DNA from: Bradyrhizobium diazoefficiens
GTDB taxonomy: Bacteria; Pseudomonadota; Alphaproteobacteria; Rhizobiales; Xanthobacteraceae
Direction: 5' to 3'
DNA length: 64,000 bases
NCBI RefSeq assembly: GCF_016616425.1
Contig: NZ_CP067101.1
Coordinates: 5,580,001-5,644,000, forward strand
In this document: positions 21,600-42,069 of the stretch, piece after piece
Position numbering within the stretch: position 1 is the stretch's first letter
How the letters are laid out: each line of letters begins with the position of its first letter
The notes under the pieces: generated by a model
What the model was told of the DNA's origin: nothing
Databases searched by the model: none
Seen by the model: the letters and a program-made list of their open reading frames with translations, nothing else
Translations under genes and position numbers: made by a program

Positions 21600-21829
21600 T
21601 TGTCAGCTCCAAATTGGTCTTGCCGCCCGCCCCACCTGCCCTCGACGCTCGCAATTACCAGGCGCGACCTTCTCATCCATTCGCTACCAAAGCCTGGACG
21701 GCTGCAGTGTTCCCGATCCGGACCGGATCGGCAACTTGCCCGAGGCCGACGGCGAGATCAATTTTGCGTCGAGCGCGGTGATATCCTTCTCCGGCGAAGG
21801 GCTGGACCGCCGCCGACGCCGCCGCACCC

Positions 21830-24151: not shown

Positions 24152-24299
24152 CGTCTGATCCTTGTTCCGGTAATCGGGGTTATTATACCGATCCGTTCCG
24201 GATGTCGTCGAGATCAGCGTCGACGGAAACGCTGGGCTGCCCCGCGCCATGCCAGCTTTGGTGCGGGCCTCTTGATGCTGGCCTTTTTGGTGCAGGTTC

Positions 24300-25769: not shown

Positions 25770-28700
25770 TTACTGGATGCCATAGCCAGCAAACTCGTCG
25801 ACAATGGCTGGCTGGATGTGTTTCGCCGCATTGATATCTGTCTTCGCGCTCGCGGCTCTGCCGCTGCGCCGTGCGGCGATCCCCCGGCCGTAGAGCGCGG
25901 ATGCGCGCTTCGGATCGTGCGACAGCGCCGAGGTATAGTCGGCAATTGCCTTGTTATAATAGCCGAGCTTTAGGTTGACCAAGCCGCGGCTGTCGAACGC
26001 GTCCGCGAAATTCGGGGCAATTCGCAACGACTCGTTGCAGTCCTTCAGCGCGGCCTGCACCTCGTCGAGCATTGCGAGCGCCCAGCAGCGATTGTTGAGC
26101 GCACCAGCATGTCGCGGATCCCGGCGGATCACCTCGTCAAAATCCTGGATCGCGAGCTCGAAATCGCCGCCAAGCGCCCGCTTTAAGCCGCGTCGGAAAA
26201 TACCATCCAGATCGGTCGGCTCACCCGCGCCGGCGTCCAGCGGCCGGGCGGAAGTGATTGATGCCGAATCCCCCGGATTGGTGTTCGCCGACTCGCCAGG
26301 GATTGCCATTGCCGACTTTGCGGGAGCCGTCTGGGGGGAATTGTCAGAGCTCACAGCGGCTGATTTTTCCGGCGTCACCGATATTGACTGGTCGGGAGCA
26401 ACGGCCGCCGGCTTGCCGGGCGCGACCGGCCCGGAATTTTCCGGCTGGTCTGTCGCCGTCGTTTCAGGCGCCGGGGCAGCGAGCCTCGCAAGCTGCTGCA
26501 CCGCCAGATCATGGTAGTGGCCCGAAGGATGACTTGCAACGAAGTCGTTCCAGGCCTGTTTCGTCCCAGTCCCTGCCGCGATGTCGTAGTCTACGCGCAC
26601 CTTGGCGTCCGGATCCAGCGATGGAGTCTCGGCGTCCGGTGCCGACGCAGTCGGTCTTTCAAAGGCGACCGGAAGGGCCGGCTTCGGCGCAGCCGAGCTG
26701 ACGTCGGGGACATGATAACCGTGGCAGAGCGTGCAGCTTTCCCACGCGGTCTGTTGGCTGTGGCATTCGGCGCAAAGGGCCTTGTCCAGGTGCTTGAAAT
26801 TCGGCGTGTAGTTGACCGGATCGCCTCCTTCGTAAGTCTTCAAGAATCCGCTGTCGGTCGGCTGCAATTCATGACACCTGACGCATGTCTTGGCGCCGAT
26901 CAGTTCAACGTGCGGCTTGTGAGAATAGTTGGTGAAGCGGTTGTTGATCGCATTTGGATCAAAAGGGTGCCAATTCACAACCTTGGCTCCGGCTTCGTCG
27001 TCAACGCTGTGGCATTTGGTGCAACGGCCGACCGCGTCCTTTGGTGCCAACTCAGCGAACACCGGCGTCATTTTGTCGTGCAAGCCGGCGCCGTGGCCGC
27101 GGCCGGCGAGATCGAGCCAGGTCTGCAGGAACTGATCGGCATGACCGGTCGGGCGATACCGGATCGTGAAATCGTCGCGATACCAGCCGCCGGTCTGCGC
27201 CCAGGCCTCGGGATCGAACGGGACGGGCGTCGCATCGGCCGGCGTCTTTGCTTCGGCACTTGCGCTCGCGTCATCCTTTTTGGAGCTGTCATCGGCCGTT
27301 GCCGACAAGATGTTACCGGCATCGGACTTGTTCCCCGAAAGGATGTCATCCTTGTCGGACTTGGTGGGGCCGTCATCCTTGCTGCTCCCAGCGAGGATGT
27401 CGTCGCTCTTGCTTGCCGCGGAAGCGTCACTCTTGTCCGGGCCCAGAATGTCATTCTTGTCGGAGCTCAAAATGTCGGCGTTGCCGCTGCCGCCTCCCGC
27501 AGGTGCAAGTATATCGTCGGAAGACGCAGCGCCGGGCGCCTTGGTCATTGCAGCGGCATTCCCGCCAGCGGAAGGCGGGGGCATTGCTGCGTCGATCTTC
27601 GGCTTTGGCGGCGGCGTGAAACTGCGCGTCGGCTCGCCGCGCTCATGCCGCTGCAGATCGTCTTGCAAATCGGGGAACCATTCGCGATTGCCAGCCATGA
27701 CGACGTCATGCGACATGCCACCGGCCAGCGCCGCCATTTGGAGCGGATCGACCTTATTGCCGGACTTGGCGCCGGCGCGAGCCCTCCCCGCCGCCGGATT
27801 GGTGGTCTCGAGGCGATTGAACAGGCGCTTGATCGCCCACGCCAGCGCCGCGACACGCGCGAGGTCCTGATCACTGGCCTTGCTCAGGTCAAGCAGATTA
27901 AGCCCTGCCACCGCGGATACGACGTTCTCGCCGTTGGATTCCAGCAGCAGCCCCATGAAGGGTGTCACCGCTGCTTCCGAATCCTTAGGCCAATAGCCGA
28001 TGTCGATGCCGTGTTCTCTCAAGGTCGCAACGTCGAGTGCCGGCACGGCGATGACGTCGATGCCCTTGGGCCCGCTGACCTGCGTGACCCCGGTAATGTC
28101 GCCGTTGTGGCAGCCGGCGCACATGCTTTCGAACGACTTGACCACCATGTATCGCTTCCGGACTCCCGGCTGATGGCAGTCAGCGCAATTGTCGGGCGCG
28201 ACCTGCCCCGCAATCGCGGCTTTCACCGCGTCAGGAAAATGTTTCGACATATGCGATTGGTGGTCGAAGATGATGCGCGGACGCCGCTGATACGGATATT
28301 TGTCAAACTGCGGATGTGAGCTCGCGAACGAACCGAATCTCGACACGTGGCAGCTCTGGCAACGCTGGTTCGAGACCGCCTTCAGGTCCGCAAATACGCC
28401 CTGATGCTCCTTGTGACAGGTCGCGCACGGGACCTCCGCTTCGGCCCCGCGTGACCGTGCGGGAAACACGACGCGCTGTATCGGACTCTCGGCCGGAGCA
28501 TCCTTCGATTTGAGGCGAAGCGTTTCGGTGAGCCGCTTCAAGTCGTCGATGGGATGCGTGTGCGGGGTGAAAGGCTCCGCTCCCATGACGTGGCAGGTCA
28601 CGCACAAGTTGGAGTTCTGCCGCGGTTCGACCGTCGTAACCAGACGGTGCAGCAGATCGACTTTCCCCGAGCGCGCGCCGGCATGGCAGGTGGAACAGTC

Positions 28701-29111
28701 GGTCAGACCTGCGTGGTGTGAAGAAAGCCTGCCCGGCATCATGAAGTGCCGCCCCGCTTCGCCTCCCATCGCAACTGCCAAGACACCGACGATGAGCGCC
28801 ACTGCCGCGAGTGCACCGCGCTTGCGCTTCGCGCGCAGGCTCGGACGCGGCACACAGCGCTCCAGGGTCATGCAGCACTGCCCGTCTGGCAACGGACCCG
28901 CCTGACAGGGGCCGCCAGCGTTGGCAGATCGCCGGCATTGCCACCGATCGCCCTCCAGGCGCGGCTGGCAGACGGTGGTCACGCGGCAGCGACCGTCACC
29001 GCCCGGGCCCAGATCGCACGGCTTGCCATCTGCCAGACGCCCGCAAACCCACGCATCCTGCGGACGTTCGTACCTGCTTTCCTTGAAGCCGAATTTCTGG
29101 AGGACGATCAT
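25770..29111 (-). CDS. Membrane-anchored decahaem cytochrome c with Cys-rich head and TPR tail
   Basis: 1113 residues, in order: a cytoplasmic head (about 20-95) with nine Cys in two similar units (PCDLGPGGDGRC and PCQAGPLPDGQCC); one transmembrane helix (GALAAVALIVGVLAVAMGG); six CxxCH sites at about 137-335; an Asp/Ser/Lys-rich linker at about 528-605 with repeated D[ND]IL motifs; four more CxxCH sites at about 695-795; a Pro/Ala/Ser linker; and about three TPRs at 965-1100. Ten covalent haems face the periplasm. Last of seven co-directional genes, 6 bases after the cytochrome b stop. It probably stores or relays electrons from the membrane, with TPRs docking partners. Haem count and topology are seen; the role is inferred. 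Confidence 0.9.
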   Translation of the reverse strand: MIVLQKFGFKESRYERPQDAWVCGRLADGKPCDLGPGGDGRCRVTTVCQPRLEGDRWQCRRSANAGGPCQAGPLPDGQCCMTLERCVPRPSLRAKRKRGALAAVALIVGVLAVAMGGEAGRHFMMPGRLSSHHAGLTDCSTCHAGARSGKVDLLHRLVTTVEPRQNSNLCVTCHVMGAEPFTPHTHPIDDLKRLTETLRLKSKDAPAESPIQRVVFPARSRGAEAEVPCATCHKEHQGVFADLKAVSNQRCQSCHVSRFGSFASSHPQFDKYPYQRRPRIIFDHQSHMSKHFPDAVKAAIAGQVAPDNCADCHQPGVRKRYMVVKSFESMCAGCHNGDITGVTQVSGPKGIDVIAVPALDVATLREHGIDIGYWPKDSEAAVTPFMGLLLESNGENVVSAVAGLNLLDLSKASDQDLARVAALAWAIKRLFNRLETTNPAAGRARAGAKSGNKVDPLQMAALAGGMSHDVVMAGNREWFPDLQDDLQRHERGEPTRSFTPPPKPKIDAAMPPPSAGGNAAAMTKAPGAASSDDILAPAGGGSGNADILSSDKNDILGPDKSDASAASKSDDILAGSSKDDGPTKSDKDDILSGNKSDAGNILSATADDSSKKDDASASAEAKTPADATPVPFDPEAWAQTGGWYRDDFTIRYRPTGHADQFLQTWLDLAGRGHGAGLHDKMTPVFAELAPKDAVGRCTKCHSVDDEAGAKVVNWHPFDPNAINNRFTNYSHKPHVELIGAKTCVRCHELQPTDSGFLKTYEGGDPVNYTPNFKHLDKALCAECHSQQTAWESCTLCHGYHVPDVSSAAPKPALPVAFERPTASAPDAETPSLDPDAKVRVDYDIAAGTGTKQAWNDFVASHPSGHYHDLAVQQLARLAAPAPETTATDQPENSGPVAPGKPAAVAPDQSISVTPEKSAAVSSDNSPQTAPAKSAMAIPGESANTNPGDSASITSARPLDAGAGEPTDLDGIFRRGLKRALGGDFELAIQDFDEVIRRDPRHAGALNNRCWALAMLDEVQAALKDCNESLRIAPNFADAFDSRGLVNLKLGYYNKAIADYTSALSHDPKRASALYGRGIAARRSGRAASAKTDINAAKHIQPAIVDEFAGYGIQ

Positions 29112-29117
29112 GCCGGC

Positions 29118-29948
29118 CTAGCCCGTCGCGAAGGCGTATTCCAACGCCACATGGACTACGATCGCCACCAGAAGGGCATAGGTCGCTGGAACGTGCATGA
29201 AAAGCCAAATGCGCAGCAGCCCGCCATTGCTGTAATGAAAATCGAGACTGCTCTTGGCCTCGACGAGATCGCGCATCTTCTGCAGGCGCGCCTTGCCGGG
29301 TTCATCGAGATATCGCTCAATGGCGGCAAGCTGCCCCAGAATTCGCGCCTGCGGTACCTTCGACGCCGCCAGATGCGCGAAGACGTTACGTGGTCCAGCG
29401 AAGAAATCGCTCAGGGAGTCCACATAGAGCTTGGCGATGCTCTTTGTGTTGCCGTCCTGGACGGACTCCCGGGCGATCGCCTCGGCCTGTTCCGCCAGTT
29501 GCGCCCTGAACAGCGGGATACGGTCGAACAAGATGCGTTCGCCCTGCGCCTCGAGGCGCGGCGGCAAAATCTTGCTCACGATTGCGCCTGCAAGCCCGCT
29601 CAAGGTGACAAGCACAAGCAGGCTCCAGAGCAACCAATGCAGCAGAGAGCCCGGCAGCTCATATCTGACGTGGACGATGAAGATCGCGACCGTCAGGAAG
29701 CCGACGTAATAGTGCACAAGCAGCCAGAACCTGACGCGGCCGAAGGGAATGATGATGACCTTCTTGCGCCAGCTCAGCAGCATCATCACGAAGATGCACG
29801 CAAACAACGTCCACCCGCTGAAGAATTGAACGTCGTGCAAGGCAATATCGCGCCGCGCGTGCTCCACGAAAAACAGCACGAACGCGACACTCACGACCGC
29901 AAGGTTGATGGCCGTGTTTCTGCTGAACAATGAGGTCAACCAAGCCAC
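29118..29948 (-). CDS. Four-histidine cytochrome b-type membrane protein
   Basis: 276 residues from GTG 29948, about five membrane helices. Two helices each carry a His pair 14 residues apart: H79/H93 (VHYYVGFLTVAIFIVHV) and H252/H266 (MHVPATYALLVAIVVH). This is the classic arrangement for two stacked b haems across the membrane. A soluble helical insertion of about 110 residues separates them. It overlaps the CNB-ferredoxin gene by 13 bases and is followed at once by the decahaem gene. Likely moves electrons between the cytoplasmic ferredoxin, quinone and periplasmic haems. The closest formal family is uncertain (ferric-reductase-like or b561-like). Confidence 0.78.
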   Translation of the reverse strand: MAWLTSLFSRNTAINLAVVSVAFVLFFVEHARRDIALHDVQFFSGWTLFACIFVMMLLSWRKKVIIIPFGRVRFWLLVHYYVGFLTVAIFIVHVRYELPGSLLHWLLWSLLVLVTLSGLAGAIVSKILPPRLEAQGERILFDRIPLFRAQLAEQAEAIARESVQDGNTKSIAKLYVDSLSDFFAGPRNVFAHLAASKVPQARILGQLAAIERYLDEPGKARLQKMRDLVEAKSSLDFHYSNGGLLRIWLFMHVPATYALLVAIVVHVALEYAFATG

Positions 29949-31639
29949 GCCAATAACTTTCTGGAATCGCGAATGTCGACACGAATCAAGGCATCGTGGG
30001 GACAGGCCTGGACGCAGGCCGGCCCGGTCAATTGGTCCACGCAAAGGTCGCACTTGGTGGCGCGACTGATCGTCAGGCCTTCGCCGTCGAGCAGGAAGGC
30101 GCCCGTCTTGTCGCGGATGTCCACCATCTGAATATTGTCGTACGGGCACGAATTGGCGCAGGTGGCGCAGCCGATGCAAGTGCCGTCATTGATGACGACG
30201 GTTCCGGACCCCTCCTCGCGGTGGATGGCGCCGGTCGGACAGCCGATCAGGCAGACCGGATCGGTGCAGTGCATGCAGGCATTGGTGACCATCAGATTGT
30301 TATGCGAGAAGCCGTGCCGCCGAAAGCGTGGGTTGTTGTCGTGCGCGGTGGCGCAGGCCCTCACGCAATCGTCGCAGCCGACGCAGCGATCGAGATTGAT
30401 CGCCATGGCTTTCTCACCGTTGATGAAGCGATGATCGACGAGAAAATCCATCATTTCCTGCTGCATCTTGAGCGCGACGGGTTCCGTGCTCGACACGACC
30501 CTCTTGTCGCGGCGATGGTGGGCAGGAAGGCCGGGCAGCACATACTTGCAGATCAGGTTGGTCGGAATGCGAATGACATCGACATAACCAATGGCGCGCA
30601 GAGTTGCCTTCAGCGCCACGCCGGCTTCTCCGGCTGCGATGGAGGCGATTTCATCCAGGCCGAAGACGTCGTTGACAGACAGATGGTCGATCGCCTGCTC
30701 GCCAAAGTCGACGCGTTCGGTCACCCTGGCGAAACCCCGGCTGATCAATAGCAGCCCGTCGACATGGTCGCCTTGCTCGCAAATCAACGTCTCCTGCTCG
30801 ATCACGCGGCTGACGTCGGTCTGCCGCTCCTTCTTGAATCGATGCATCCAGTCAGTGTTGCCGTAAGTCTCGAACAGCGATTGTCTCGCAATCTCGTCGA
30901 GTGCCCGTTGATCCAAATGATGAAAAATCGGGCATTCCTGCAACCGGCCGACGAGGCCGCGCTCGCGATAGATCTGATCGATGCGCTGGCGGAACGCCGT
31001 GGACCAGGTTCGGATGTCCCGCACCCCCTGCCAGCGCAGTTCGAACAGAAGCGTATCGTCTTCGGCGGCAACCACCGTGGCGGTGCGCGGCCTCCCGGTC
31101 AGGGCCGCGAGCTCGCCAAAAACCTCGGTCGTTTGAAGAGCGACTGCCGGATAGCGGTGCCTGGCGTCGTCGACATCGATATTGCCCAACCCACTCGGCG
31201 CGGGCTCCTGGGGTACCGGCGTTCGACGTCCGCGCCAGCGCCGCCGTGTCGGCCGAAACTCCGGAGGCTTGGCGGACGCAAACAACCGTGCGACCGATCG
31301 CGACCAGCTTGCCCTGTGCTTCGGGGCCTGGCCGTTCGTCCCGATCTTGATCGGTTCCGCGAACGCCAGGACGCCGCCCGAGAGGATGACAAACAACGAA
31401 CTGCCGTAGTCGCCTTTGCAAACGATCACTTCACCGCGCTGGCATCTGCGCAGGCGGCCGTCATTCGCGATAATCTGATCCAGCGGCAGCCGCGCCTGAA
31501 ACTCCGCCGGGTCGACATCCGCAAAAATGGGCAGCGAGAGAATGCGGCTGACCGTATCCGCGTCGACGGGCTCGTCCCCGAACGGTTCATCCCACCGCCG
31601 GTTGCGCTCTTCGACAAGCTCTGTCGCCGACTCAGACAT
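29936..31639 (-). CDS. Twin cyclic-nucleotide-binding domain fused to four-cluster ferredoxin
   Basis: 567 residues. Two Crp-like cyclic-nucleotide-binding folds: the first about 33-205 (IFADVDPAEFQARL, GEVIVCKGDYGSSLFVILSG, then after a Pro/Arg-rich insert FGELAALTGRPRTATVVA), the second about 240-370 (CPIFHHLDQRALDEIA, QGDHVDGLLLISRG). The C-terminus (about 420-560) is a HybA/NrfC-like ferredoxin with four [4Fe-4S] sets (CVGCDDCVRAC, ACMHCTDPVCLIGCP, CIGCATCANSCP, CDLCVDQLTGPACVQACP). There is no signal peptide, so it is cytoplasmic. It overlaps the cytochrome b gene. An electron-transfer subunit gated by a nucleotide or a protein partner is a reasonable inference; no helix-turn-helix is present. 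Confidence 0.9.
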   Translation of the reverse strand: MSESATELVEERNRRWDEPFGDEPVDADTVSRILSLPIFADVDPAEFQARLPLDQIIANDGRLRRCQRGEVIVCKGDYGSSLFVILSGGVLAFAEPIKIGTNGQAPKHRASWSRSVARLFASAKPPEFRPTRRRWRGRRTPVPQEPAPSGLGNIDVDDARHRYPAVALQTTEVFGELAALTGRPRTATVVAAEDDTLLFELRWQGVRDIRTWSTAFRQRIDQIYRERGLVGRLQECPIFHHLDQRALDEIARQSLFETYGNTDWMHRFKKERQTDVSRVIEQETLICEQGDHVDGLLLISRGFARVTERVDFGEQAIDHLSVNDVFGLDEIASIAAGEAGVALKATLRAIGYVDVIRIPTNLICKYVLPGLPAHHRRDKRVVSSTEPVALKMQQEMMDFLVDHRFINGEKAMAINLDRCVGCDDCVRACATAHDNNPRFRRHGFSHNNLMVTNACMHCTDPVCLIGCPTGAIHREEGSGTVVINDGTCIGCATCANSCPYDNIQMVDIRDKTGAFLLDGEGLTISRATKCDLCVDQLTGPACVQACPHDALIRVDIRDSRKLLAWLG

Positions 31640-31657
31640 TTTAATTTCGAGACCTCT

Positions 31658-32677
31658 TCAGTTTGAAACCTGACCTTTGAACTTGTCGGCACCGGGGATG
31701 TACTGGTCGATGGCAGCAAAGCCCGAGCCGTCGTAGCTCTTGGAGAACTTTTGGCCCAGCTCGGAAACCTTGCCGGCCGCGGCAACAAGCTCGGCCTCGT
31801 TGTTCAGCTTCAGCCCGGCGCCCTGGCCGACGTCGGAAATCGCCTTGAGTTCCGGCGCATTGGGCAAGAGGTTGGCGAGCGCAGCGACGGCCTTGCGGGC
31901 CGCATCGGCGCGCTGTGCCATCTTCAAGGCATAGTTATCCTTGGCCGTGGCCTTGCTGACGCCGATCAGCGACGCCTCCAACTCGACCACACGGCCGACC
32001 ACAAACAGCATGCGCTTGCGGGCTTGCGAGGCTTCCGGATTGGACGCTCCTTTGGTGAACCAGACATTGTGACGAACCTCTCCCTGGCTCCAACTGACGA
32101 GTTCGAAGCTGCTTCCTGCTGCGTGCCCGCCGACATTGACGAGCTTCTCGTTCGGCACGACGTGGCAGGTGAGGCAGTTCTTGGCGAGAGCGTAATAGTT
32201 GGTCGGGCGGATCATGCCGGCCGCCTCGGACTTCTCCCACCTTGCGGCGATCTCCGCCTTTGTTTCCTGGCCTTCCTTCTTGCCGCTGAACCCCGAATGC
32301 ACCTTGACCCAGTCCCTGGCTCCGGAATGGCAGGATTCACACGAAATTCCGGCAATGACCTTGTCAGGCGCCTGCACGGTGAAGTGGCAGTTCAGGCATA
32401 GGCTCTCCGACTTCAGCCGCTTGACGCCCATCTTCTCGGCTATGGCATCCGCGTCCTTGTTGTTGGGAAGATCCCGGAACGTCGTGAAGTGATGGGTGCG
32501 CTGCCAGATCGTGGCTTCCTTCTTGTGGCATTCGGCGCAGGCGTTGGGCCCGACCACCAGTTGGGGATCCGCCGCGCGCGCGGCGGAAAATCCGATTCCC
32601 GCGAGAAGCAACACCGCCGCGATCCGCCCCAGCCAGACAGGCGCTACCAGATTGGTCGGCATGATCGTCATTTTCAT
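31658..32677 (-). CDS. Periplasmic tetrahaem cytochrome c (c554-like)
   Basis: 339 residues with a Sec signal (VWLGRIAAVLLLAGIGFSAA, cleavage near ARAAD). Four CxxCH sites in the first half: CAECH, CLNCH, CESCH and CLTCH (about residues 48-175). This spacing resembles cytochrome c554-type proteins. The second half has no haem and is helical and Ala/Lys-rich (GVSKATAKDNYALKMAQRAD). Lies 18 bases before the CNB-ferredoxin gene. Probably a soluble shuttle between the membrane module and the outer-membrane side. Confidence 0.88.
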   Translation of the reverse strand: MKMTIMPTNLVAPVWLGRIAAVLLLAGIGFSAARAADPQLVVGPNACAECHKKEATIWQRTHHFTTFRDLPNNKDADAIAEKMGVKRLKSESLCLNCHFTVQAPDKVIAGISCESCHSGARDWVKVHSGFSGKKEGQETKAEIAARWEKSEAAGMIRPTNYYALAKNCLTCHVVPNEKLVNVGGHAAGSSFELVSWSQGEVRHNVWFTKGASNPEASQARKRMLFVVGRVVELEASLIGVSKATAKDNYALKMAQRADAARKAVAALANLLPNAPELKAISDVGQGAGLKLNNEAELVAAAGKVSELGQKFSKSYDGSGFAAIDQYIPGADKFKGQVSN

Positions 32678-32731
32678 CTCCCATCCATCAAGCGGGCAGC
32701 CACCTTGCTCACGGTGGCAAATCTGAAGCCG

Positions 32732-34015
32732 TTATGCGTCGAGTGCGATGTCCGCGGTCGGATGCGCGATGCAGAGCAACGCCGATCCAGCTGCCGGATT
32801 GCTCGCAGGTTTGACCAGATAACTTACGTTGCCATGTTTAACAGCCGTAACACAGGTTCCGCAGTTGCCCGCTCGGCATCCCGAATTGATCCTGATGCCG
32901 TTTGCCTCGGCCAACTCCAGCAAGGTCCCGGCCTCCCTCGTCCAGACCAGAGACTTGCGCGAGCGCATGAGCTCGACCTTGAAGCCCGCGCCCGCAGCCG
33001 CTGCCTCGGGTTCTGGCTTCTGAACCTTCTTGACCGATCCTGGCCCGAACGCTTCGAAGTGAATGTCCGGCTCAGGTACGCCCCACTCGGTGAGCGCTTT
33101 GACGACTGCTTCCATCATCGGCGGCGGACCGCAGATATAGAACTCGTAGTTCGATGTCTTCAGATATCGTTTGAGCAAATCGACACTTAGAAATCCCTTG
33201 CAGTCGTAATCCTTGCCTTCGATGCACTGCTCGGTCGGATCGGAATACACGGTGACCGTATGGAACTGTTGCCTGTTCTTGTCGGCGATATCGCGGATTT
33301 CGTCGCGCAATGCGATGTCATTGCTGTTTCTGACTGCGAGAAAAAACCACGCCGTCCGTCGGCTGCCCGTTTCGGCCAGCCATTTGAACATCGACAGAAC
33401 CGGCGTAAGTCCTATGCCGCCGGCGATGAAAACGGCGGGACGTTCCGAAGCCGTATCGAGACAAAAGCCGCCCGCCGGAGCCCTGACATCGACGATGTCG
33501 CCCTCCTTGAGGATGTCATGAAAATAGCTCGACGATAAACCCGAAGGGACGTCGGGCCCCGCCCTGGGCGGTGGCGGGATACGCTTAATGCTGACCCGAT
33601 ACCGATCGCGCGCCAATGGACTGTCGGAGAGGGAATAACAGCGGACCACCGGAACCGGATGGTCAGGCACATTGAGTTCGAACGTCAAAAATTGCCCCGG
33701 CAGAAACGGCGGCAAGGCGCCCCCGTCATGCGGCTCCAGAAAAAAGGAACAGATATCCCCTGCGCGGTTTTCGATCCTCCGCTTCGCCACCCGGAACTTC
33801 CGCTTTCCGGACCAGGTCAGTTCGACGCGCTGACGCGAACTCTCGGCCCGCCGAATCAAGACGTCCGTTTGCGCGGTGAAGGCGGCGAGCCTTCGACGAT
33901 CCAGCTGACGCCTGCGAATGGCATGACCGACTTCGGCAAACACGGCGATGCCCGCCTGCAAGAGCACGGCGCCCACAATGAACAGTCCGCAGAATTGTAA
34001 CACCACAGCCAGCAT
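32732..34015 (-). CDS. Membrane-anchored FAD/NAD(P) reductase with C-terminal [2Fe-2S] domain
   Basis: 427 residues. An N-terminal membrane helix (VVLQFCGLFIVGAVLLQAGI) is followed by a ferredoxin-reductase FAD domain (PGQFLTFEL, RCYSLSDSP), an NAD(P) domain (FIAGGIGLTPVLSMF, FYICGPPPMMEAVV) and a plant-type [2Fe-2S] domain (NSGCRAGNCGTC with the fourth Cys in LLCIAHP). This is the Hcr/vanillate-reductase order. It probably moves electrons between NAD(P)H and the cytoplasmic ferredoxin or cytochrome b of this operon, in either direction. Co-directional, 54 bases before the tetrahaem gene. Confidence 0.9.
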   Translation of the reverse strand: MLAVVLQFCGLFIVGAVLLQAGIAVFAEVGHAIRRRQLDRRRLAAFTAQTDVLIRRAESSRQRVELTWSGKRKFRVAKRRIENRAGDICSFFLEPHDGGALPPFLPGQFLTFELNVPDHPVPVVRCYSLSDSPLARDRYRVSIKRIPPPPRAGPDVPSGLSSSYFHDILKEGDIVDVRAPAGGFCLDTASERPAVFIAGGIGLTPVLSMFKWLAETGSRRTAWFFLAVRNSNDIALRDEIRDIADKNRQQFHTVTVYSDPTEQCIEGKDYDCKGFLSVDLLKRYLKTSNYEFYICGPPPMMEAVVKALTEWGVPEPDIHFEAFGPGSVKKVQKPEPEAAAAGAGFKVELMRSRKSLVWTREAGTLLELAEANGIRINSGCRAGNCGTCVTAVKHGNVSYLVKPASNPAAGSALLCIAHPTADIALDA

Positions 34016-34050
34016 GAACAGTCCTTCCGAAGGGCCGGGTCATTCCAGAG

Positions 34051-35628
34051 TCAAAAGCGTGTTCTCGTTCCTACGGCGGCGCCGTATCCGAAGTGCCGTT
34101 CGCTAGTCTCGAGCAGAAAGCCGTTCACCTGAACGCTGGTTCTGCTATCGATCGCCTGCACATATTGACCGCCGAAAGCCACGACGCTTTCTTTGACGCC
34201 CCTGATGTCGCCGTCGGTAAATCCCTTGCCGGCGAGTTCAAGCGTCAACTGCTTCCTGGGGCCGAAGAACTTTTGGTAGCCGATGGCCCCGCCGACGGCG
34301 GAGTTGTAAGCATCGCCCGGAATTGGTGACCCGGCCAAACCGGCAGCCAGCGGGGTAAAGAGAATGCCGACCCGCTCCAGCGGGCCGCCGACCTGGGCGC
34401 TGCGGGCAGCGGAGGTGTAGTTGCCGAGCGATGTGAAAAAGTTGGCGTAGATGATGTCCGTCGAACCAGGCATCGTTCGGGAGATTTCTGCCAACAGGAG
34501 GACGCCGTCGTTGACCCACGGCCCCTTCGCATCAAGCGCCGTCGAGGTGTTGATCCTGAAGGCGGTGTTGATGTCCCCGAAGCGCTGTGTGCTGGAAGCG
34601 CCCCAGAAAACGCCTGACCCGCCCCTTTGCACCCCCGCCCAATCCCGCGGATTGTCGCTACCGACATAGGCGAAGTCGAACGTCACGATGTTCCTGCGGA
34701 AGTCTGTCTCGGTGAACACGCCGAGCAGTTGCGCGGAGTGATCGGGCAGAGGTTGCATGTCTCCGCGCCTGATATCGCCCCAGCCGTACACGCCGGTGAC
34801 GCGCATGTCCTGAGTGAGCCCAGGTATCTGCATCGTATCCTTGGTAATCCCCAGCGCCTGGATGTTGTCGTTGATCATGATTCCTTCTTGGAAAAAGATC
34901 TGCTGCTTGCCCACCGCAAAACCGAAATCCAGGCCCCTTCGGTCGTCGGCGTCGATGCCTGGAAACAGTTGGCGTGTGTCGCCTTCGAAGAACAAGGTCT
35001 GGATATTCGGGTTGAGTGCGTCGACGAATTGCGTGCCCTGCCCATCGACGTGCAATAGCCCGGTGCCCAGACTGGAGCCTTGCGAGAGGGGAGAAAACCC
35101 GATGACGACTCGTTCAGTGGGTGTGAGCTGCAGGTGACCGAAGATGTCCGCCCGACCGGACACGTATTCGCGGCCGGGATTGACGCCGTTGTTGAAGACC
35201 CCGGCGCTGGTCTGGAGATCGCCGAACACCCAGAATGCCGGCTGCCAAACGGCACCAGTGGGGATCTTGAAGCCCGATTTGATGTTTCCAGGCCCCAGGA
35301 ACGGCTCGTTCCATTCGATGATCGGCGGATTTCTCTCCGGCAGCTGGGTATGTTCCTTCAGAAGCGGTACCGGCTTTTCGCTCAGGCGGCTCTTGCTGTG
35401 GGCGAGTTCGGGATGTTCCAGCTTCTGACTTCCCGGCGCCGGCTTGGAACGCCTCGGCTTCTTCTTGCTGTGATCCGTCTCGGCGACCTCTGGCGACGCC
35501 GCAGCGAGGGCGGCGACCTCCGTGGGCTGCTGTGCAGCCGGGTCGGCCACAGCGGGCGCGGCCAAGCCGGCCGCCTGAACCAGCGCGACCCCGCAAGAAA
35601 TAAGCAATCGATTCGCCCGCATGCCCAA
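34051..35628 (-). CDS. Outer-membrane beta-barrel protein candidate
   Basis: 525 residues. Signal peptide (RLLISCGVALVQAAGLAAPA), then a basic Lys/Pro-rich periplasmic stretch (HSKKKPRRSKPAPGSQ), then a region from about 115 to the end rich in alternating aromatic and polar residues, ending GTRTRF with the C-terminal Phe typical of barrel proteins. No CxxCH. Sandwiched between the pentahaem and reductase genes (gaps 15 and 35 bases). By analogy with MtrB and PioB, a barrel co-encoded with multihaem cytochromes could sheath them through the outer membrane; homology to those barrels was not evident by eye. Confidence 0.75.
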   Translation of the reverse strand: MGMRANRLLISCGVALVQAAGLAAPAVADPAAQQPTEVAALAAASPEVAETDHSKKKPRRSKPAPGSQKLEHPELAHSKSRLSEKPVPLLKEHTQLPERNPPIIEWNEPFLGPGNIKSGFKIPTGAVWQPAFWVFGDLQTSAGVFNNGVNPGREYVSGRADIFGHLQLTPTERVVIGFSPLSQGSSLGTGLLHVDGQGTQFVDALNPNIQTLFFEGDTRQLFPGIDADDRRGLDFGFAVGKQQIFFQEGIMINDNIQALGITKDTMQIPGLTQDMRVTGVYGWGDIRRGDMQPLPDHSAQLLGVFTETDFRRNIVTFDFAYVGSDNPRDWAGVQRGGSGVFWGASSTQRFGDINTAFRINTSTALDAKGPWVNDGVLLLAEISRTMPGSTDIIYANFFTSLGNYTSAARSAQVGGPLERVGILFTPLAAGLAGSPIPGDAYNSAVGGAIGYQKFFGPRKQLTLELAGKGFTDGDIRGVKESVVAFGGQYVQAIDSRTSVQVNGFLLETSERHFGYGAAVGTRTRF

Positions 35629-35643
35629 CCCTCGTTGCCGAAC

Positions 35644-37842
35644 CTAAGGCAAAACCACTTCGACGGTTCGTGTCCTGACAGCTACGCTTCCATTGACGAC
35701 TGCACGGGCGATCTCTGCAGGGCTCATGTTGTAGTCAAAACCGCCGTCCTTGATCGTGTCGATCAAATTGCTCGGTATCATCTGCGCGATGAACCGAACC
35801 GTGATCTTGTAGCGCTCGCCACTCCTGAGTTTGTCGGCAGGCACGGCATAGGTGGCCGTTCGCCGCCCCAAAGGCTCGATGGTCTGCTTGTGCTTACGCG
35901 CACCGAGCGGATGGCCGACGAGGGTCGTTGCCCTCGTTTCCGGCCGCACGAAGGGCAGCACGTCGACCGAAAGATTGGTTGGCAGAACCTGCTCACGCTC
36001 GCCGCCGCGAAGCGTGCGCACCAGGAAGAGCGACTGCAGATTGAACAGGTCCTTGTCTTCTTCCAACTCGCCATTGTGCACGTAGATGGAGTGCGAATCG
36101 CGCACGTCGCCATTGGGATCGCGATCTCCCGAGACATAGACCTTGTTGCCGCGGCTGTCCGCGACCGTCACCTCCAGGAAGAACAGGCGCTCGGCGTCGA
36201 AGCCGGTCGGCACGGCGTGACCTTGCGTCGCGTTGATGACATCGACGGAGAACTGCAGGCCGCTGGCATCCCTCTTGAGGACATTGATGTCGCTGAGCTG
36301 GATGCCGTTGCGCAGAACCTGCAGCCGCAGCCGGCGCACCTTTGCCAGACGCTCGAACTGAGTCTTGATGATGGCTCGCGCATCATAGCGTTCGTCGCGG
36401 GATTCCCAGGCCTTGGGAAACTTGTAGTCCTTCGCGACCGATTTTTCGAACTCGTCGGTGCCCCATCCGGCCTTGTAGTTGAACTGCAGCCATTCCGCGA
36501 GGTTCTTGAGCTTCTGCGCATCGACATTGAAAGGGAATATCCCGGGATGGATCACCGAATAGTCAGGGCCGGCAAAGGTATGGTTGGTCAGCTTGCGGTC
36601 CCTGGTCGGCACGCCGCCGACGATCGCGGCGGGCCCGAAATCATAGCCCGACGCCACGCCCTGCACCCGGCCCATATGGCAGTCCTGGCACTTCTCGCCC
36701 CTCTCCTTGATCGCCGGCGATGCCTTGAATTCGGTGAAGGCTTCCTCCAGCCTGAACCCATTGAGCAGCGTGACGTCGTGGCAAGTTCCGCAGAACATTG
36801 GCTTCGTGAGAAAGAACGCCTGCTTCACAGCTCCGTGGATGGCGCGTCCGGGCTGATCCTTCGAGGTCGAAACGCGGTACTCCTCCGGCTTGCTCAGAAC
36901 TCGTTTCAGCTCAGCGCCGCCCTTCGGCCCGTACACCGGCGAATAGATGTCGCCTTCCACGGTGGCCATCCGCGCGCTGATCTTGCCATAAGCCTGATTG
37001 ACCCGGTGGCAGGCGACGCAGGTTATGCCTTCCCGCGACGCCGGCGAGCGGTCGAGATTGGAGCCATAGACCGACTCGTTGAGATTCATTCCGAGCGGGG
37101 TGTGGCAGCGAATGCAGAAATCGCCATTGGTCCCGCCGGAATTGATGTTGATCTTGGTCTGCATCGCGTTGAACACGACGCTTACCTGAGCATAAGCGTG
37201 CTGCGATACCGACCACTCCTCGAATTGCTTGACGTGGCAGGTCGCGCAGGTGCTTGCCGACGGATACTTGGTTTCAAGGAACAGTTTCTCGTGCTCGGCA
37301 TCGGCCGCCTTTCGCCTGGCCTCGTCGTCCGCCCGCTTCTTTTTCGCTTCCTCCGATTCGGTGGCGGCAGCGGGAGCGACCTTCAGAACGTCATCTGGAG
37401 GCTTGGCACCCGGGGTCAGCAGATCATTGCCACCTGGTGCAGCGGGCGGCGTCAGCAGGTCGTTGCCGGAGGGCTGGCTGGATCCCGATGGCGCAGGCGC
37501 CGGCGCGGAGCCGCCCGGCGCGGTCAAGAGGTCGTCATTATTGCCTTGGGCGACAACCGTATTCGATCGGCCCTTGCGCGCCTTGATGTCAGCCAGATAG
37601 TTCCGAAGCCGGCCGATATCGCCAGGGGTCGCATCGCGGCGCGAGCCGGACGATTGGCGGTCGTTGACTTCGAGCAAATAGCTCTGAAGCCGCGCAACAT
37701 CAGCGGCTATCGCGCCGGCATCGCGGATTGATGCAGATAATGGAACGGCTTGCGCTGCGGCAGCCACCAGCAGCAACGAACTTGCGAAAACGGCGATCAG
37801 CGCGCCCCCGCGCCGAACTCGCATTCCAAACGCGCGAGCCAT
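35644..37842 (-). CDS. Periplasmic pentahaem cytochrome c with repeated DLL-type linker
   Basis: 732 residues. Sec signal (ALIAVFASSLLLVAAAAQAV), then a linker at about 100-152 with four motifs of the form [DN]D[LV]L (NNDDLLTAP, GNDLLTPPA, GNDLLTPGA, PPDDVLK). A charged helix (ESEEAKKKRADDEARRKAAD) precedes five CxxCH sites (CATCH, CIRCH, CVACH, CGTCH, CQDCH; about 197-385). A haem-free C-terminal half looks beta-rich. First gene of the seven-gene minus-strand run, behind a 300-base regulatory gap. Similar linker motifs occur in the decahaem protein of the same operon. Confidence 0.88.
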   Translation of the reverse strand: MARAFGMRVRRGGALIAVFASSLLLVAAAAQAVPLSASIRDAGAIAADVARLQSYLLEVNDRQSSGSRRDATPGDIGRLRNYLADIKARKGRSNTVVAQGNNDDLLTAPGGSAPAPAPSGSSQPSGNDLLTPPAAPGGNDLLTPGAKPPDDVLKVAPAAATESEEAKKKRADDEARRKAADAEHEKLFLETKYPSASTCATCHVKQFEEWSVSQHAYAQVSVVFNAMQTKININSGGTNGDFCIRCHTPLGMNLNESVYGSNLDRSPASREGITCVACHRVNQAYGKISARMATVEGDIYSPVYGPKGGAELKRVLSKPEEYRVSTSKDQPGRAIHGAVKQAFFLTKPMFCGTCHDVTLLNGFRLEEAFTEFKASPAIKERGEKCQDCHMGRVQGVASGYDFGPAAIVGGVPTRDRKLTNHTFAGPDYSVIHPGIFPFNVDAQKLKNLAEWLQFNYKAGWGTDEFEKSVAKDYKFPKAWESRDERYDARAIIKTQFERLAKVRRLRLQVLRNGIQLSDINVLKRDASGLQFSVDVINATQGHAVPTGFDAERLFFLEVTVADSRGNKVYVSGDRDPNGDVRDSHSIYVHNGELEEDKDLFNLQSLFLVRTLRGGEREQVLPTNLSVDVLPFVRPETRATTLVGHPLGARKHKQTIEPLGRRTATYAVPADKLRSGERYKITVRFIAQMIPSNLIDTIKDGGFDYNMSPAEIARAVVNGSVAVRTRTVEVVLP

Positions 37843-38086
37843 AAATCAACTACCAGCTTAATTATAAATCGCTACATGGCGCTTCACCCGGCAATCAACG
37901 CAGAAACAAATCCGGTGAAGCGTCTAACAGATCGAAACATAATCTTCGAAGATGACGCGACGCAAACGAATTTTGCTGCGGAGCTCATCGAGCGACGGGA
38001 TCGCGCCGGTTTCTCCGCGAGCTGTGTTTGTTGAGCCACGGACGGGAAAGTAGAGTGCTCGACTGCAACACACGGGGCGACCTCGT

Positions 38087-38104
38087 TTGTACGCTATCGT
38101 ACAA
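38087..38104. promoter_or_regulatory. 18-bp inverted repeat upstream of the cytochrome operon
   Basis: TTGTACG-CTAT-CGTACAA, perfect 7-base arms around 4 bases, about 245 bases before the pentahaem ATG and just beyond the 3' end of the Crp/Fnr gene. It has the TTG...CAA ends and symmetry of Crp/Fnr-type sites, though longer than the 14-base FNR/FixK core. Good candidate operator for the neighbouring regulator. Confidence 0.6.
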
Positions 38105-38132
38105 TCCATGCGCGAATATTGAATCATGCGGC

Positions 38133-38155
38133 CTCTACATCTTTAAGATGTAGAG
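38133..38155. promoter_or_regulatory. 23-bp inverted repeat over the Crp/Fnr stop codon
   Basis: Arms CTCTACATCTT (38133-38143) and AAGATGTAGAG (38145-38155) are perfect around a single T and span the stop codon of the regulator (38143-38145). No T-run follows, so an intrinsic terminator is doubtful. It may be an operator or a stem that limits transcription into the cytochrome operon. Confidence 0.55.
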
Positions 38156-38883
38156 CCAGGCGAGGCAAGCTGCCGCTCGTATTGCCGCTGAATCAAGCGG
38201 AAGCAACCACAGCAGACTTTTACCAGATCGTCCGGCTGACGGACCGTGATCCGCCCGCGGTTGGTGTCGATCAGGCCCTGACTTTCAAAGTGCTCCAGAA
38301 ACTGAGTAATGCTCGCTCGCCGGACGCCAAGCAGTTGGGCCAACACAGTGTGGGTCAACGGGATATCGTCCGAGCCCAGACAAGATCGAGCGACAAGGAG
38401 CCATCGCGCAAGACGGTATTTCAAACCATGCGTCGAATTGCACGCGCCCGATTGAGATGTCTGCGCCAGAACAACGTTGAGGTATGCGTAAAGAGTTGCG
38501 CGAAATATTGGAAGGCTTTCCATTGCTTCGCGGAATTCGCGGGTTGTTATGCGCAATGCCTGACCGCCAACCTGAACCGTCCTGCGGTGCAGCGGCTCAG
38601 TCACTGAACCCAATACAACCGGCGCTCCCACCATCCCCTCTGAACCGACCAGCCACACTTCGACAAATTTTTCATGGCCGACGTTCGCCGCAACAGAGAC
38701 CAGGCCGCTTTCGACAAAATAGACATGGTCCATCGGCGTGTTGTAGTCGTGAAGTATCTGTTGCGGGAGGAGCGGCTCCCTCTCAGAAATTGAAAGGATC
38801 CGCGAGAGTTCGTCGGCAGGGATTGCGCGCAACAACCTGTTTCGTGTGCGATCAATATCTGATGCGCCAATTTGCGGTATCAT
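38143..38883 (-). CDS. Crp/Fnr family transcriptional regulator
   Basis: 246 residues. An N-terminal cyclic-nucleotide-binding-like fold (about 20-140; YFVESGLVSVAANVGHEKFV, VGSEGMVGAPVVLG) lacks an Fnr-type N-terminal Cys cluster. A C-terminal winged helix follows (LTHTVLAQLLGVRRASITQF, then EHFESQGLI). It lies directly upstream of the pentahaem operon on the same strand, 300 bases away, and is the likely regulator of that operon. Divergent from ccmI. Confidence 0.9.
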   Translation of the reverse strand: MIPQIGASDIDRTRNRLLRAIPADELSRILSISEREPLLPQQILHDYNTPMDHVYFVESGLVSVAANVGHEKFVEVWLVGSEGMVGAPVVLGSVTEPLHRRTVQVGGQALRITTREFREAMESLPIFRATLYAYLNVVLAQTSQSGACNSTHGLKYRLARWLLVARSCLGSDDIPLTHTVLAQLLGVRRASITQFLEHFESQGLIDTNRGRITVRQPDDLVKVCCGCFRLIQRQYERQLASPGSTS

Positions 38884-39248: not shown

Positions 39249-40946
39249 TTGATGACGCTTTGGCTCGTTCTGATATTGATGACGATGGTAGCGCTTGCCG
39301 CTGTCGTTTGGCCATTTTTGGTCGCACGCGCCAGTACGCCGTCCGGCAGCGACGTCGCCGTATACAAGGATCAGCTCGTCGAGATCGAGCGAGATCGTGA
39401 GGCCGGCTTGATCGCCGTTGCAGATGCAGAAGCAGCACGCATCGAGGTCTCGCGCAGACTTCTCAATGCAGCTGAAACTGCCGACTCCTTTCGCCAGCCC
39501 TCACTCACCGGCGACACGTTTAGGACTCGACGGCTTGCGGTTGTTGCCGCCGTGCTGGTGTTCTTGCCCGCGCTCGCCGCCGGCATGTACCTCCGACTCG
39601 GGGCGCCCGGCTTGGCTACGGTCGAGAGCATGCCCGACCAGAGCGCACGATCGTCCGACGATACGCTGATCGACACCATGGTGGCACAAGTCGAGGGCTA
39701 TCTGAGGGAGACGCCGAATGATGGCCACGGTTGGGAAGTTCTTGCACCAGTCTACATGCGCCTGGGCAGGTATGAGGATTCGGCGCGAGCCTGGCGAAAC
39801 GCCATTGCCGATCTCGGCGACAGCGCTGATCGAGAGGAAAATCTCGGCGAGTCCCTGGTCGCCGCTGCTAATGGTATCGTAATAGCAGAAGCCAGGACGG
39901 CATTCGATCAAGCTCTTTCGGTCGATCGCAACAGGGTCATGGCACGTTATTATATTGGCCTTGCGGCAAAGCAGGACGGCCGCCGTGACGAGGCCGCAAG
40001 GATCTGGCGCGATCTCGTGGCGGCAGCTCCACCTGACGCCGGGTGGATCGACACCGTCCGCAATGCGCTCGCGCGGCTGGACGAGGCGGCCGGCGCCATG
40101 GCGGACAGCGCATCGTCTTCCGAAGTTCAACAGAACGCCATGATCCGGTCAATGGTCGAGGGATTGGCGGCGCGCCTCAAGGCCGATGGAGGAGACGTGG
40201 ACGACTGGCTCAGGCTCGTGCGGTCCTACAGCGTGCTTGGCGAACACGAAAAGGCGGATGCCGCTTCGGCGGATGGGCGGCGCGCGCTCGCAGACGATCC
40301 TGACAAACTGGCTCATTTCGAGAACGGCTTGACGAACCTCGACCGGCAGACCGAGAGCAGCTCCCGCGCGACTGCGGCGCCGTCAACCCCGACCGTGACC
40401 GCAGCACCCGAGCACGACGCCCCGACTGTGCAAGCGATGGTCGCCAATCTGGCCGAGCGTCTCAGGACAAAAGGAGGCGGTCCCGACAGCTGGCTGATGT
40501 TGGTGCGCTCCTACGAAACGCTCGGAGAACGTGAGAAAGCCGCCACCGCGATAGCCCAGGCCCGGTCGGCTTTTGCCTATGATCCCGAGAAGTTAGCCCA
40601 ATTCAATCAACTCTTGAGCTCAGTCGACAGTGCTTCGAGCGTGCCTGTGGCACCGAATGCCTCGCAACGGCGGGATGTTCGAGAATCGGCCCGCGCCGAC
40701 ACAGCTCCGACTGAGGAACAGGCGGCGATGATCAACAGCATGGTCGATCGCCTGGCCGAGCGGCTGAAGGCAAATGGCAACGACGTCGACGGATGGATTC
40801 AACTGATGCGCTCTTACGTCGTGCTCGGCCGGCGGGATCAAGCATCCGCTGCGGGTCGCAGCGCCCGTATTGCTCTTGGCGACAACAATGACGCGCTGCG
40901 TCGGCTCAGTGAAGGGGCAAGGGAATTGGGCGTCGAGCTACCATGA
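39249..40946 (+). CDS. ccmI: CcmI/CycH-like cytochrome c maturation protein with triplicated module
   Basis: Holds apocytochrome c for haem attachment at the periplasmic face. Two N-terminal membrane segments (LWLVLILMTMVALAAVVWPF and VVAAVLVFLPALAAGMYLRL) flank the short heptad-rich loop usual for CcmI, then TPR-like repeats. The C-terminus has three copies of one module of about 63 residues (298-360, 393-457, 494-557; MVEGLAARLKADGGDVDDWL, MVANLAERLRTKGGGPDSWL, MVDRLAERLKANGNDVDGWI), separated by disordered linkers; one copy is usual, so 565 residues is long. No other ccm gene is nearby. Probably specialised for the multihaem cytochromes next door. Confidence 0.87.
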   Translation: MMTLWLVLILMTMVALAAVVWPFLVARASTPSGSDVAVYKDQLVEIERDREAGLIAVADAEAARIEVSRRLLNAAETADSFRQPSLTGDTFRTRRLAVVAAVLVFLPALAAGMYLRLGAPGLATVESMPDQSARSSDDTLIDTMVAQVEGYLRETPNDGHGWEVLAPVYMRLGRYEDSARAWRNAIADLGDSADREENLGESLVAAANGIVIAEARTAFDQALSVDRNRVMARYYIGLAAKQDGRRDEAARIWRDLVAAAPPDAGWIDTVRNALARLDEAAGAMADSASSSEVQQNAMIRSMVEGLAARLKADGGDVDDWLRLVRSYSVLGEHEKADAASADGRRALADDPDKLAHFENGLTNLDRQTESSSRATAAPSTPTVTAAPEHDAPTVQAMVANLAERLRTKGGGPDSWLMLVRSYETLGEREKAATAIAQARSAFAYDPEKLAQFNQLLSSVDSASSVPVAPNASQRRDVRESARADTAPTEEQAAMINSMVDRLAERLKANGNDVDGWIQLMRSYVVLGRRDQASAAGRSARIALGDNNDALRRLSEGARELGVELP

Positions 40947-41067
40947 GATCGAGGCCTGAAGCGGTCTCGGACTTCGCCCTGCTGTGCGGCAAGCGACCAG
41001 TTTGCAACTCGTGATGCGATGCTCGCCTGTTCGATGCTTGTTCGTCGTGCGCGCCAGCCGCTCCTTC

Positions 41068-42069
41068 TCATTCGGCCGCAGCGGACGCCGATTGCGGCTT
41101 TCGATCGTTCGGTCCAGTTCGCGCCATCTCCTCGTCGAGCCACAGGCTATGGTGTTCGCGCGCCCAATTGAGGTCGACCTCGCCTGAGCCCATGGCCTCG
41201 AAAGCCCCCTCCATTCCGATCGTGCCGATATAGATGTGCCCGATCATTGCGGCAACGAACAGCACGGCCACCACCGAGTGGATGATCTGGGCCATCTGCA
41301 TGCCTTCGATACCGCTGATGTAGAATGGGAACATCAACTGGTATCCCGTCGCCGCAACGAGGCCGCCCCCGATCACGACGATCCAGTAGATCATCTTCTG
41401 ACCGGCATTGAAGCGATAGGCCGGCGGTTGATCATGGCCAACGATGCCTCCTCCGCGCTTGATCCAGGCAACGTCCACCTTGTTCGGGATATTTCCCGCG
41501 ATCCACATCAGGAAGATCAGGACAACGCCGATGGTGAACGGGAAGCTCAGATAGTTGTGGGCATACTTGGCCCATTGCGACCACTCGGAGAAGGCTTCAG
41601 GGCCAATCAACGGCAACAATAGCGGCCGTCCGAAGGTGATGTTCAGTCCCGAGATCGCGAGGATGATGAAGCAGGTGGCTGTCATCCAGTGCACGAAGCG
41701 CTCGAACAGGGTGAAGCGCACGATGCGGCGTCCCGATCGCCCGCTTTCGAGCCGCACCATGCCGCGGGTCAGGTAGAAGATCAGGAGAAGCACCAGCACG
41801 CCGACGATCGCGACGCCGCCGATCCAACGCAGCGTGACGTTGCGAAATTCCCGCCATTCGCGTCCCTGCGGCTGCTCGAGCACCCCCGACCTCTGGTCCG
41901 GAATGCTGACACGACCCTGGATCCGGTTGAACTGCTGCAGCAGTTGCTGCTCCTTGACGGAGCTTGCGGTCGGGTTGACCTGTTGGCCCCACGCTGGAGC
42001 CGCTGCGATCACCAGAAACAGCGCGCCTGCGCCAAACGCCAGGCGAATGATCCTTCCAAATGACGCCAT
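41068..42069 (-). CDS. fdhC: Formate dehydrogenase cytochrome b subunit
   Basis: Gamma subunit of membrane-bound formate dehydrogenase, which takes electrons from the Fe-S subunit through two b haems to the quinone pool. 333 residues: signal-like N-terminus (AFGAGALFLVIAAAPAWG), a periplasmic Gln-rich stretch, then about five helices including ERFVHWMTATCFIILAISG and FAAMIGHIYIGTIG-type haem-ligand segments. Third in fdhABC, 39 bases after fdhB; convergent with ccmI. Confidence 0.92.
   Translation of the reverse strand: MASFGRIIRLAFGAGALFLVIAAAPAWGQQVNPTASSVKEQQLLQQFNRIQGRVSIPDQRSGVLEQPQGREWREFRNVTLRWIGGVAIVGVLVLLLIFYLTRGMVRLESGRSGRRIVRFTLFERFVHWMTATCFIILAISGLNITFGRPLLLPLIGPEAFSEWSQWAKYAHNYLSFPFTIGVVLIFLMWIAGNIPNKVDVAWIKRGGGIVGHDQPPAYRFNAGQKMIYWIVVIGGGLVAATGYQLMFPFYISGIEGMQMAQIIHSVVAVLFVAAMIGHIYIGTIGMEGAFEAMGSGEVDLNWAREHHSLWLDEEMARTGPNDRKPQSASAAAE

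Follow-up and report, generated by a model that had tools for sequence, protein, structure and literature searches.

The 64,000-nucleotide stretch of Bradyrhizobium diazoefficiens DNA analysed here (contig NZ_CP067101.1, positions 5,580,001 to 5,644,000; hereafter the window) contains a minus-strand operon of seven genes at positions 25770-37842, which we call G1 (the decahaem gene, 25770-29111) to G7 (the pentahaem gene, 35644-37842). By every feature of gene content and motif that was tested, the operon fits Subgroup II of PCC4, a system named in 2017 (PMC5566968), and it probably encodes a machine that passes electrons between the NAD(P)H pool and the cell exterior. The full reading that we prefer, a PCC4 Subgroup II conduit that would be linked to NAD(P)H, accessible through a pore, gated through cyclic-nucleotide-binding (CNB) domains and slightly more inclined to export than to uptake, has in our judgement an even chance of being correct. 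An earlier note on the same DNA had proposed a trans-envelope electron conduit, which is still the best reading, with its parts co-occurring in many bacteria, but its claim of an undescribed system that matches no known conduit fails, as content and motifs fit PCC4 Subgroup II (He et al. 2017). New here are the co-occurrence of the seven genes across seven phylum-level groups, displaced G7-G6 pairs, the potential for bis-histidine haem ligation and a porin model of about 18 strands, together with the CNB cassette, the cyclase neighbours and an eight-Cys domain in the decahaem cytochrome.

Gene content and the fit to PCC4

PCC4 was described as comprising a porin, periplasmic cytochromes with four, five and ten haems, an inner-membrane protein of five helices and other redox proteins (PMC5566968). 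The inner-membrane protein carries WX3HX13H on helices 3 and 5 and SGXXG on helix 4. In Subgroup II, the gene for this protein is preceded by an Fe-S gene (pfam13247) and the tetrahaem gene by a redox gene; in Subgroup I, which He et al. found in Hyphomicrobium only, the domains of the redox protein stand in another order (PMC5566968). In the window operon, the cytochromes with four, five and ten haems are encoded by G4 (31658-32677), G7 and G1, and the porin gene has its counterpart in G6 (34051-35628), whose product is predicted to be a barrel with porins as fold neighbours. The two-haem cytochrome b encoded by G2 (29118-29948) has five hydropathy peaks, of which the third and fifth carry WX3HX13H and the fourth ends with SGLAG; among homologues of at least 240 amino acids, 78/79 contain two WX3HX13H motifs and 72/79 contain SGXXG somewhere. 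G3 (29936-31639), in which two CNB domains (PF00027, two stretches) are fused to a DmsB-like ferredoxin with four [4Fe-4S] clusters, has a PF13247 match (E 4e-11) and lies upstream of G2. The NAD(P)H-linked reductase gene G5 (32732-34015) lies upstream of the tetrahaem gene, and its product has the order FAD-NAD-[2Fe-2S] (PF00970, PF00175, PF00111) after an N-terminal membrane helix, in contrast to the Fer2-FAD-NAD order of locus L098, the only Subgroup-I-like reductase scanned. This match was set by the features and motifs of the published description. The CNB domains, the eight-Cys domain, the cyclase neighbours and the porin fold go beyond what the available text of that description contains (PMC5566968).

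Comparison with 13 regions fetched from porin carriers of the same order separated two layouts. Six regions (L096-L101) are Subgroup-I-like, with G7-G6 divergent from G4-G2-G1; they share homologues of G1, G2, G4, G6 and G7 with the window and lack G3 and the eight-Cys domain. L101 belongs to another family than L096-L100, and the Subgroup-I-like loci thus occur in two families of the window's order. L103-L108 are of the window type over the sequence covered, and L102 is incomplete.

The inventory of parts in the earlier note was confirmed, and all seven genes lie where it had placed them. The intergenic gaps are -13 bases (an overlap of G2 and G3) and 6, 18, 54, 35 and 15 bases, where the value of -13 requires a GTG start of G2 at 29948. 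The listed open reading frame (ORF) of G2 begins at a TTG inside G3, and we prefer the GTG because the resulting 276 amino acids are near the length of most homologues. Counting gave the 19 covalent haem sites that had been announced (CxxCH: 10 in G1, 4 in G4, 5 in G7) in the 4056 amino acids of the seven genes, against about 0.02 expected from the Cys and His content of seven other ORFs of the window, which hold none in 4398 amino acids. The cytochrome b with four His was recovered as two HX13H pairs within the WX3HX13H motifs of G2, the four-cluster ferredoxin with two nucleotide-binding domains as 16 Cys and two CNB stretches in G3, and the membrane-anchored FAD/[2Fe-2S] reductase as an N-terminal hydrophobic peak, FAD and NAD domains and a C-terminal [2Fe-2S] domain in G5. 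The barrel candidate G6 is backed by an AlphaFold2 model with a mean pLDDT of 84.9 and a pTM of 0.79.

Other conduits resemble the operon in part. MtrCAB, PioAB and MtoAB share with it a decahaem cytochrome, a barrel and bis-His haems, but the 26-strand barrel that surrounds a decahaem cytochrome in MtrAB and PioAB differs from the about 18 strands of the predicted G6. According to the available text of PMC8406198, MtrB-type barrels have 26 strands, and Cyc2 is predicted to have 16, with a single fused haem; its cytochrome is believed to close the barrel at the periplasmic side. Cyc2 and the window operon both have a small barrel, whereas here the strands number about 18 and the pentahaem cytochrome is a separate protein. 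The Uet conduit likewise combines a barrel, a tetrahaem cytochrome and a multihaem set, and has undecahaem, trihaem, isomerase and NHL parts in the available text of PMC10734462. Identity with Uet was ruled out by the haem counts found here, which are 10, 4 and 5 only, with no undecahaem or trihaem cytochrome. In the portions of the literature retrieved by a search for PCC4 we found no functional test of the system; PMC13264449, in its available text, only cites the PCC4 paper, and a search for PCC with Hyphomicrobium gave nothing beyond He et al. 2017. PCC4 thus has almost no follow-up in the literature searched, yet relatives of G3 occur in 408 genomic stretches.

Distribution of the seven genes

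These 408 stretches were obtained from a collection with one genome per species by searching GTDB contigs with a 17-sequence alignment of G3 homologues (A1; tblastn, E up to 0.001). The best 80 of the 408 form the 80 loci discussed here, in which gene presence was scored by phmmer with the window proteins. A neighbourhood search across genomes had been suggested by the earlier note, and it found all seven genes together at 41 of the 80 loci, 25 of them with the exact order of the window. In the remaining full-set loci three blocks (G7-G6, G5 and G4-G3-G2-G1) are rearranged, and three of these loci have G4 or G5 out of place. At L003, one of the 41, the genes are in broken pieces. The 41 loci belong to Alpha- and Gammaproteobacteria, Planctomycetota, Verrucomicrobia, Nitrospinota, SAR324, Latescibacterota and Zixibacteria, or are assigned to 'Proteobacteria', so that the full set spans seven phylum-level groups among the best 80 stretches. 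Smaller sets were found at the Kiritimatiellae locus L018 (G1, G2, G3 and G5) and the Omnitrophica locus L059 (only G1-G3). Roseibium aggregatum (L001), Hwanghaeella grinnelliae (L067) and Tistlia consotensis (L011) are named carriers of all seven genes, which makes the direction of electron flow and its gating testable.

Many of the 80 loci are cut by contig ends, and 31 loci of at least 21.5 kb make up the set with full 10-kb flanks. By single-sequence search, all 31 contain G1, G2 and G3, while G5 was found at 30, G4 at 28, G7 at 21 and G6 at 20; a profile search raised G4 to 29 and G6 to 21 and left G7 at 21. Whole-genome searches revealed an adjacent, same-strand G7-G6 pair elsewhere in 7 of the 10 genomes without these genes at the locus. 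For rough comparison, the porin occurs in 4 of 398 genomes of the window's phylum, its own included, although the 10 genomes belong mostly to other phyla; in the same order it was found in 26 of 397 genomes, again including the window's own. The adjacent pair in seven of these genomes indicates that the pentahaem cytochrome and the porin, as judged from gene neighbourhood, belong to the system even when encoded apart. The earlier note had allowed for a porin without association with the cytochromes; the contrary was seen, G6 being tied to the pentahaem G7.

Some Verrucomicrobia may combine the inner module with a different outer one. At L076 and L078, G1 is accompanied by a stop-to-stop ORF of 777 or 822 amino acids and by an ORF with ten CxxCH motifs and LVIVD repeats (1357 or 1304 amino acids). 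The 822-/777-amino-acid ORF has an Alginate_exp match below the cut-off in L078 and none in L076, and L071 resembles L078. This alternative outer set lies at 14385-20789 in L076 and 14237-20609 in L078, and is also seen in L071; an ORF of the c554 type with three CxxCH motifs stands divergently before G5.

Predicted parts, electron path and gating

For the haem ligands, only homologues that have the standard number of haems were aligned. G4, a probably periplasmic tetrahaem cytochrome of the c554 type (PF13435), has four proximal and four invariant distal His in 76/76 sequences, and G1 has ten proximal and ten distal His conserved at 95 percent or more in 76 sequences. In 53 sequences of G7, five proximal and seven further His are conserved at 91 percent or more. 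These alignments contain enough conserved His beyond the proximal ones for all 19 haems to be potentially bis-His ligated, which is typical of electron relay. Among homologous ORFs over the length limit, ten haem motifs were counted in 75/85 for G1 and four in 75/77 for G4, and several of the G1 homologues without ten run into a contig end; five were found in 52/53 G7 homologues of at least 550 amino acids. In the hydropathy profiles, G4 and G7 each begin with a peak of the signal type, and G1 has one anchor peak, at residues 99-117.

G1 is thus predicted to be a membrane-anchored decahaem protein, with C-terminal TPRs (TPR match) and an N-terminal Cys-rich domain. The latter (28824-29072) consists of two four-Cys repeats before the single membrane helix. 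In the 84 G1 N-terminal sequences from loci that do not have the Subgroup I layout, each of Cys 23, 32, 42, 48, 59, 69, 79 and 86 is kept in 78 to 81 sequences; the set is absent from all six Subgroup-I-like loci. A smaller alignment, for which 49 loci passed a motif and 44 were used, had all eight Cys in 45/45 rows, which were chosen by a motif that itself demands two of them. Arg and Lys residues precede the helix downstream of the eight Cys, and the domain is therefore taken as cytoplasmic, provided that the G1 haems are periplasmic. Stand-alone forms of the domain gave 35 matches, and those with a stated contig are mostly on contigs shorter than 7 kb. At L018 (about position 12400) and L036 (about 4400), the Cys-rich N-terminal part of G1 matches a separate, unfused ORF of 139 amino acids.

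The outer module would be formed by G6 and G7. The AlphaFold2 model of G6 forms a barrel with about 18 strands over residues 131-524, with OprD/AlgE-type folds as neighbours in the structure searches. MtrB-type barrels were not among the 50 matches listed by Foldseek or by VIA, and may be present lower down. Neither Pfam nor NCBIfam gave a match for G6, and a profile search of PDB sequences with E values allowed up to 1 yielded two chance-level matches only. With about 18 modelled strands and substrate porins as neighbours, G6 may not sheath a multihaem wire in the manner of MtrB. G7, which has a signal-type N-terminus, a low-complexity linker and a C-terminal non-haem domain, is proposed as the outermost cytochrome and partner of the porin. 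Its Pfam matches over the cut-off are the general families Cytochrome_C554 and Cytochrome_C7, its only match to a solved structure up to E 0.1 is cytochrome c552 5ze8 (E 7.4e-6, residues 195-285), and it has neither CxxCK nor an NCBIfam match at the curated cut-off. The low-complexity linkers of both cytochromes, at about residues 540-640 in G1 and 100-155 in G7, contain repeats resembling DDIL/NDLL; as a docking motif shared by the two proteins, this acidic repeat was rejected, being found in only 31/73 and 23/42 homologues.

On the inner side, G3 is taken as cytoplasmic; it has no N-terminal hydrophobic peak, and its one weak peak (residues 82-100) falls inside the first CNB domain, CNB1. 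Across 81 sequences, each of its 16 cluster Cys is conserved in 79 to 81. A phosphate-binding cassette whose consensus includes Glu and Arg marks cyclic-nucleotide-binding proteins, and such a putative cassette is retained in CNB1 at residues 174-188 (31076-31120), with Gly175 in 81/81, Glu176 in 80/81 and Arg185 in 76/81 sequences; in the second CNB domain the cassette is altered (Glu330 77/81, Arg348 66/81). G3 looks switched by a cyclic nucleotide, for example cAMP. The commonest family among non-core neighbours, found at 9 loci against 5 for the next, matches a class III cyclase domain. The cyclase domain of the L009 neighbour, a protein with CHASE2 and Guanylate_cyc domains in Pfam, was detected by phmmer at 11 of the 80 loci. 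Among non-core ORFs of at least 200 amino acids, after removal of overlapping frames, cyclase matches make up 8/118 immediate neighbours versus 1/286 others (one-sided Fisher p 0.0003); the cyclase ORFs of L001 and L068 were lost at the overlap filter. Loci of the window type have both G3 and the eight-Cys domain, and loci of the Subgroup I type have neither; this pattern suggests docking of G3 on the eight-Cys domain of G1. A literature search for the combination of CNB, 4Fe-4S and multiheme found nothing.

In the reading that we prefer, electrons would pass from NAD(P)H through G5, G3, G2 and G4/G1 to G7, which would sit at the periplasmic mouth of the porin. A small redox partner, such as a metal ion or chelate, a flavin or a quinone, would reach G7 through the pore, as proposed for Cyc2, and no haem wire would fill the G6 barrel. 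A cyclic nucleotide bound to CNB1 would open or close the G3 relay, and net export would be slightly favoured over uptake. We lean only weakly to export, on the basis of the NAD(P)H-type reductase, seen in the window and at one Subgroup-I-like locus, and of the absence of a link to RuBisCO. The more detailed proposal, in which a cyclic nucleotide from a near or distant cyclase gates the conduit directly rather than transcriptionally, through docking of the nucleotide-bound ferredoxin G3 on the eight-Cys domain, which would switch NAD(P)H-linked flow to the pentahaem cytochrome, with access through an 18-strand porin and a reusable inner module, is tentative and rather unlikely to be right in all its parts. 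If the CNB reading is true, the operon would encode an electron-transfer chain that is switched directly by a second messenger.

Several observations weigh against this conduit. The porin-pentahaem pair is missing at 10 of the 31 loci with full flanks, and three genomes (L059, L076 and L078) lack it everywhere that was searched. The G6 barrel was modelled as a single chain. The cassette Glu or Arg is lost in 6/81 ferredoxins. The L009 protein is the only neighbour cyclase with a Pfam check, and a Pfam scan of 29 window proteins found no cyclase. Of the eight cyclase neighbours, six come from Planctomycetota, and five of these share one divergent layout before G5, so that their number is not a count of independent events. 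In the scheme of He et al., electrons flow the opposite way, from a donor outside the cell to the quinone pool, and these authors pointed to habitats of iron oxidisers (PMC5566968).

Uptake as drawn by these authors, from Fe(II) or Mn(II) outside through the porin and cytochromes to the cytochrome b and quinone pool and possibly in reverse to NAD+, is a possible explanation, although a somewhat improbable one in our view. The system was first met in iron oxidisers and a pyrite-oxidising enrichment, according to the available text of PMC5566968, and the carriers of G3 include Ferruginivarius sediminum and bacterium MnTg02. A quinone-only path, however, has no need of an NAD(P)H reductase, and many carriers fall in groups that we take to be better known as heterotrophs. 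Strong RuBisCO matches (E < 1e-100) are present in the window's own genome and in eight other porin carriers, but the RuBisCO marker PF00016, which also catches RuBisCO-like proteins, is not enriched, with 11/26 porin carriers against 150/371 other genomes of the order (p 0.84), and a link to autotrophy through RuBisCO was dropped.

Two further explanations were weighed. A wire as in MtrAB, with the pentahaem cytochrome or part of the decahaem threaded in the barrel and in direct contact with solids, would agree with the adjoining porin and multihaem genes, as in PCC systems, and with the G7-G6 pairing that persists in seven genomes where the pair lies apart from the rest. We nevertheless consider it very unlikely: the nearest folds of G6 are substrate porins, which have narrow pores, and the operon has no further multihaem gene. 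About 18 modelled strands also stand against 26 in MtrB-type barrels (PMC8406198, in its available text). The same substrate-porin fold would suit a periplasmic reductase, in which the pentahaem protein is an enzyme, in the style of nitrite, sulfite or tetrathionate reductases, acting on a small substrate that enters through the porin. G7 has a large non-haem C-terminal domain with conserved His542 (53/53) and His584 (50/53), a possible metal or substrate site. All five of its haems can be bis-His, however, and together with the lack of CxxCK, the general Pfam families and the absence of an NCBIfam match this makes a reductase unlikely.

Genomic context of the operon

The host genome is a single contig of 7.14 Mb. 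The porin was found in none of 35 genomes of the same genus. In six of six same-genus genomes, the DNA match runs across the formate dehydrogenase cluster and stops just beyond it, at 41055-41121, and from this end of synteny the operon appears to lie in a segment not shared with these genomes; in one of them (L119), a match to 17403-17974 follows about 12 kb further. No FNR-type box was found before the operon, in 37843-38142, with up to two mismatches allowed, and at the same stringency the whole window has 20 matches versus 15 expected. At a distance of 300 bases upstream, the strand of the operon carries a gene for a Crp-type regulator (38143-38883, minus strand), and beyond it, on the opposite strand, is a CcmI-like cytochrome c maturation gene (39249-40946, plus strand). 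Downstream of the operon, a molybdenum S/N-oxide reductase of the BisC family (21084-24250, minus strand) is encoded beside a methionine sulfoxide reductase.

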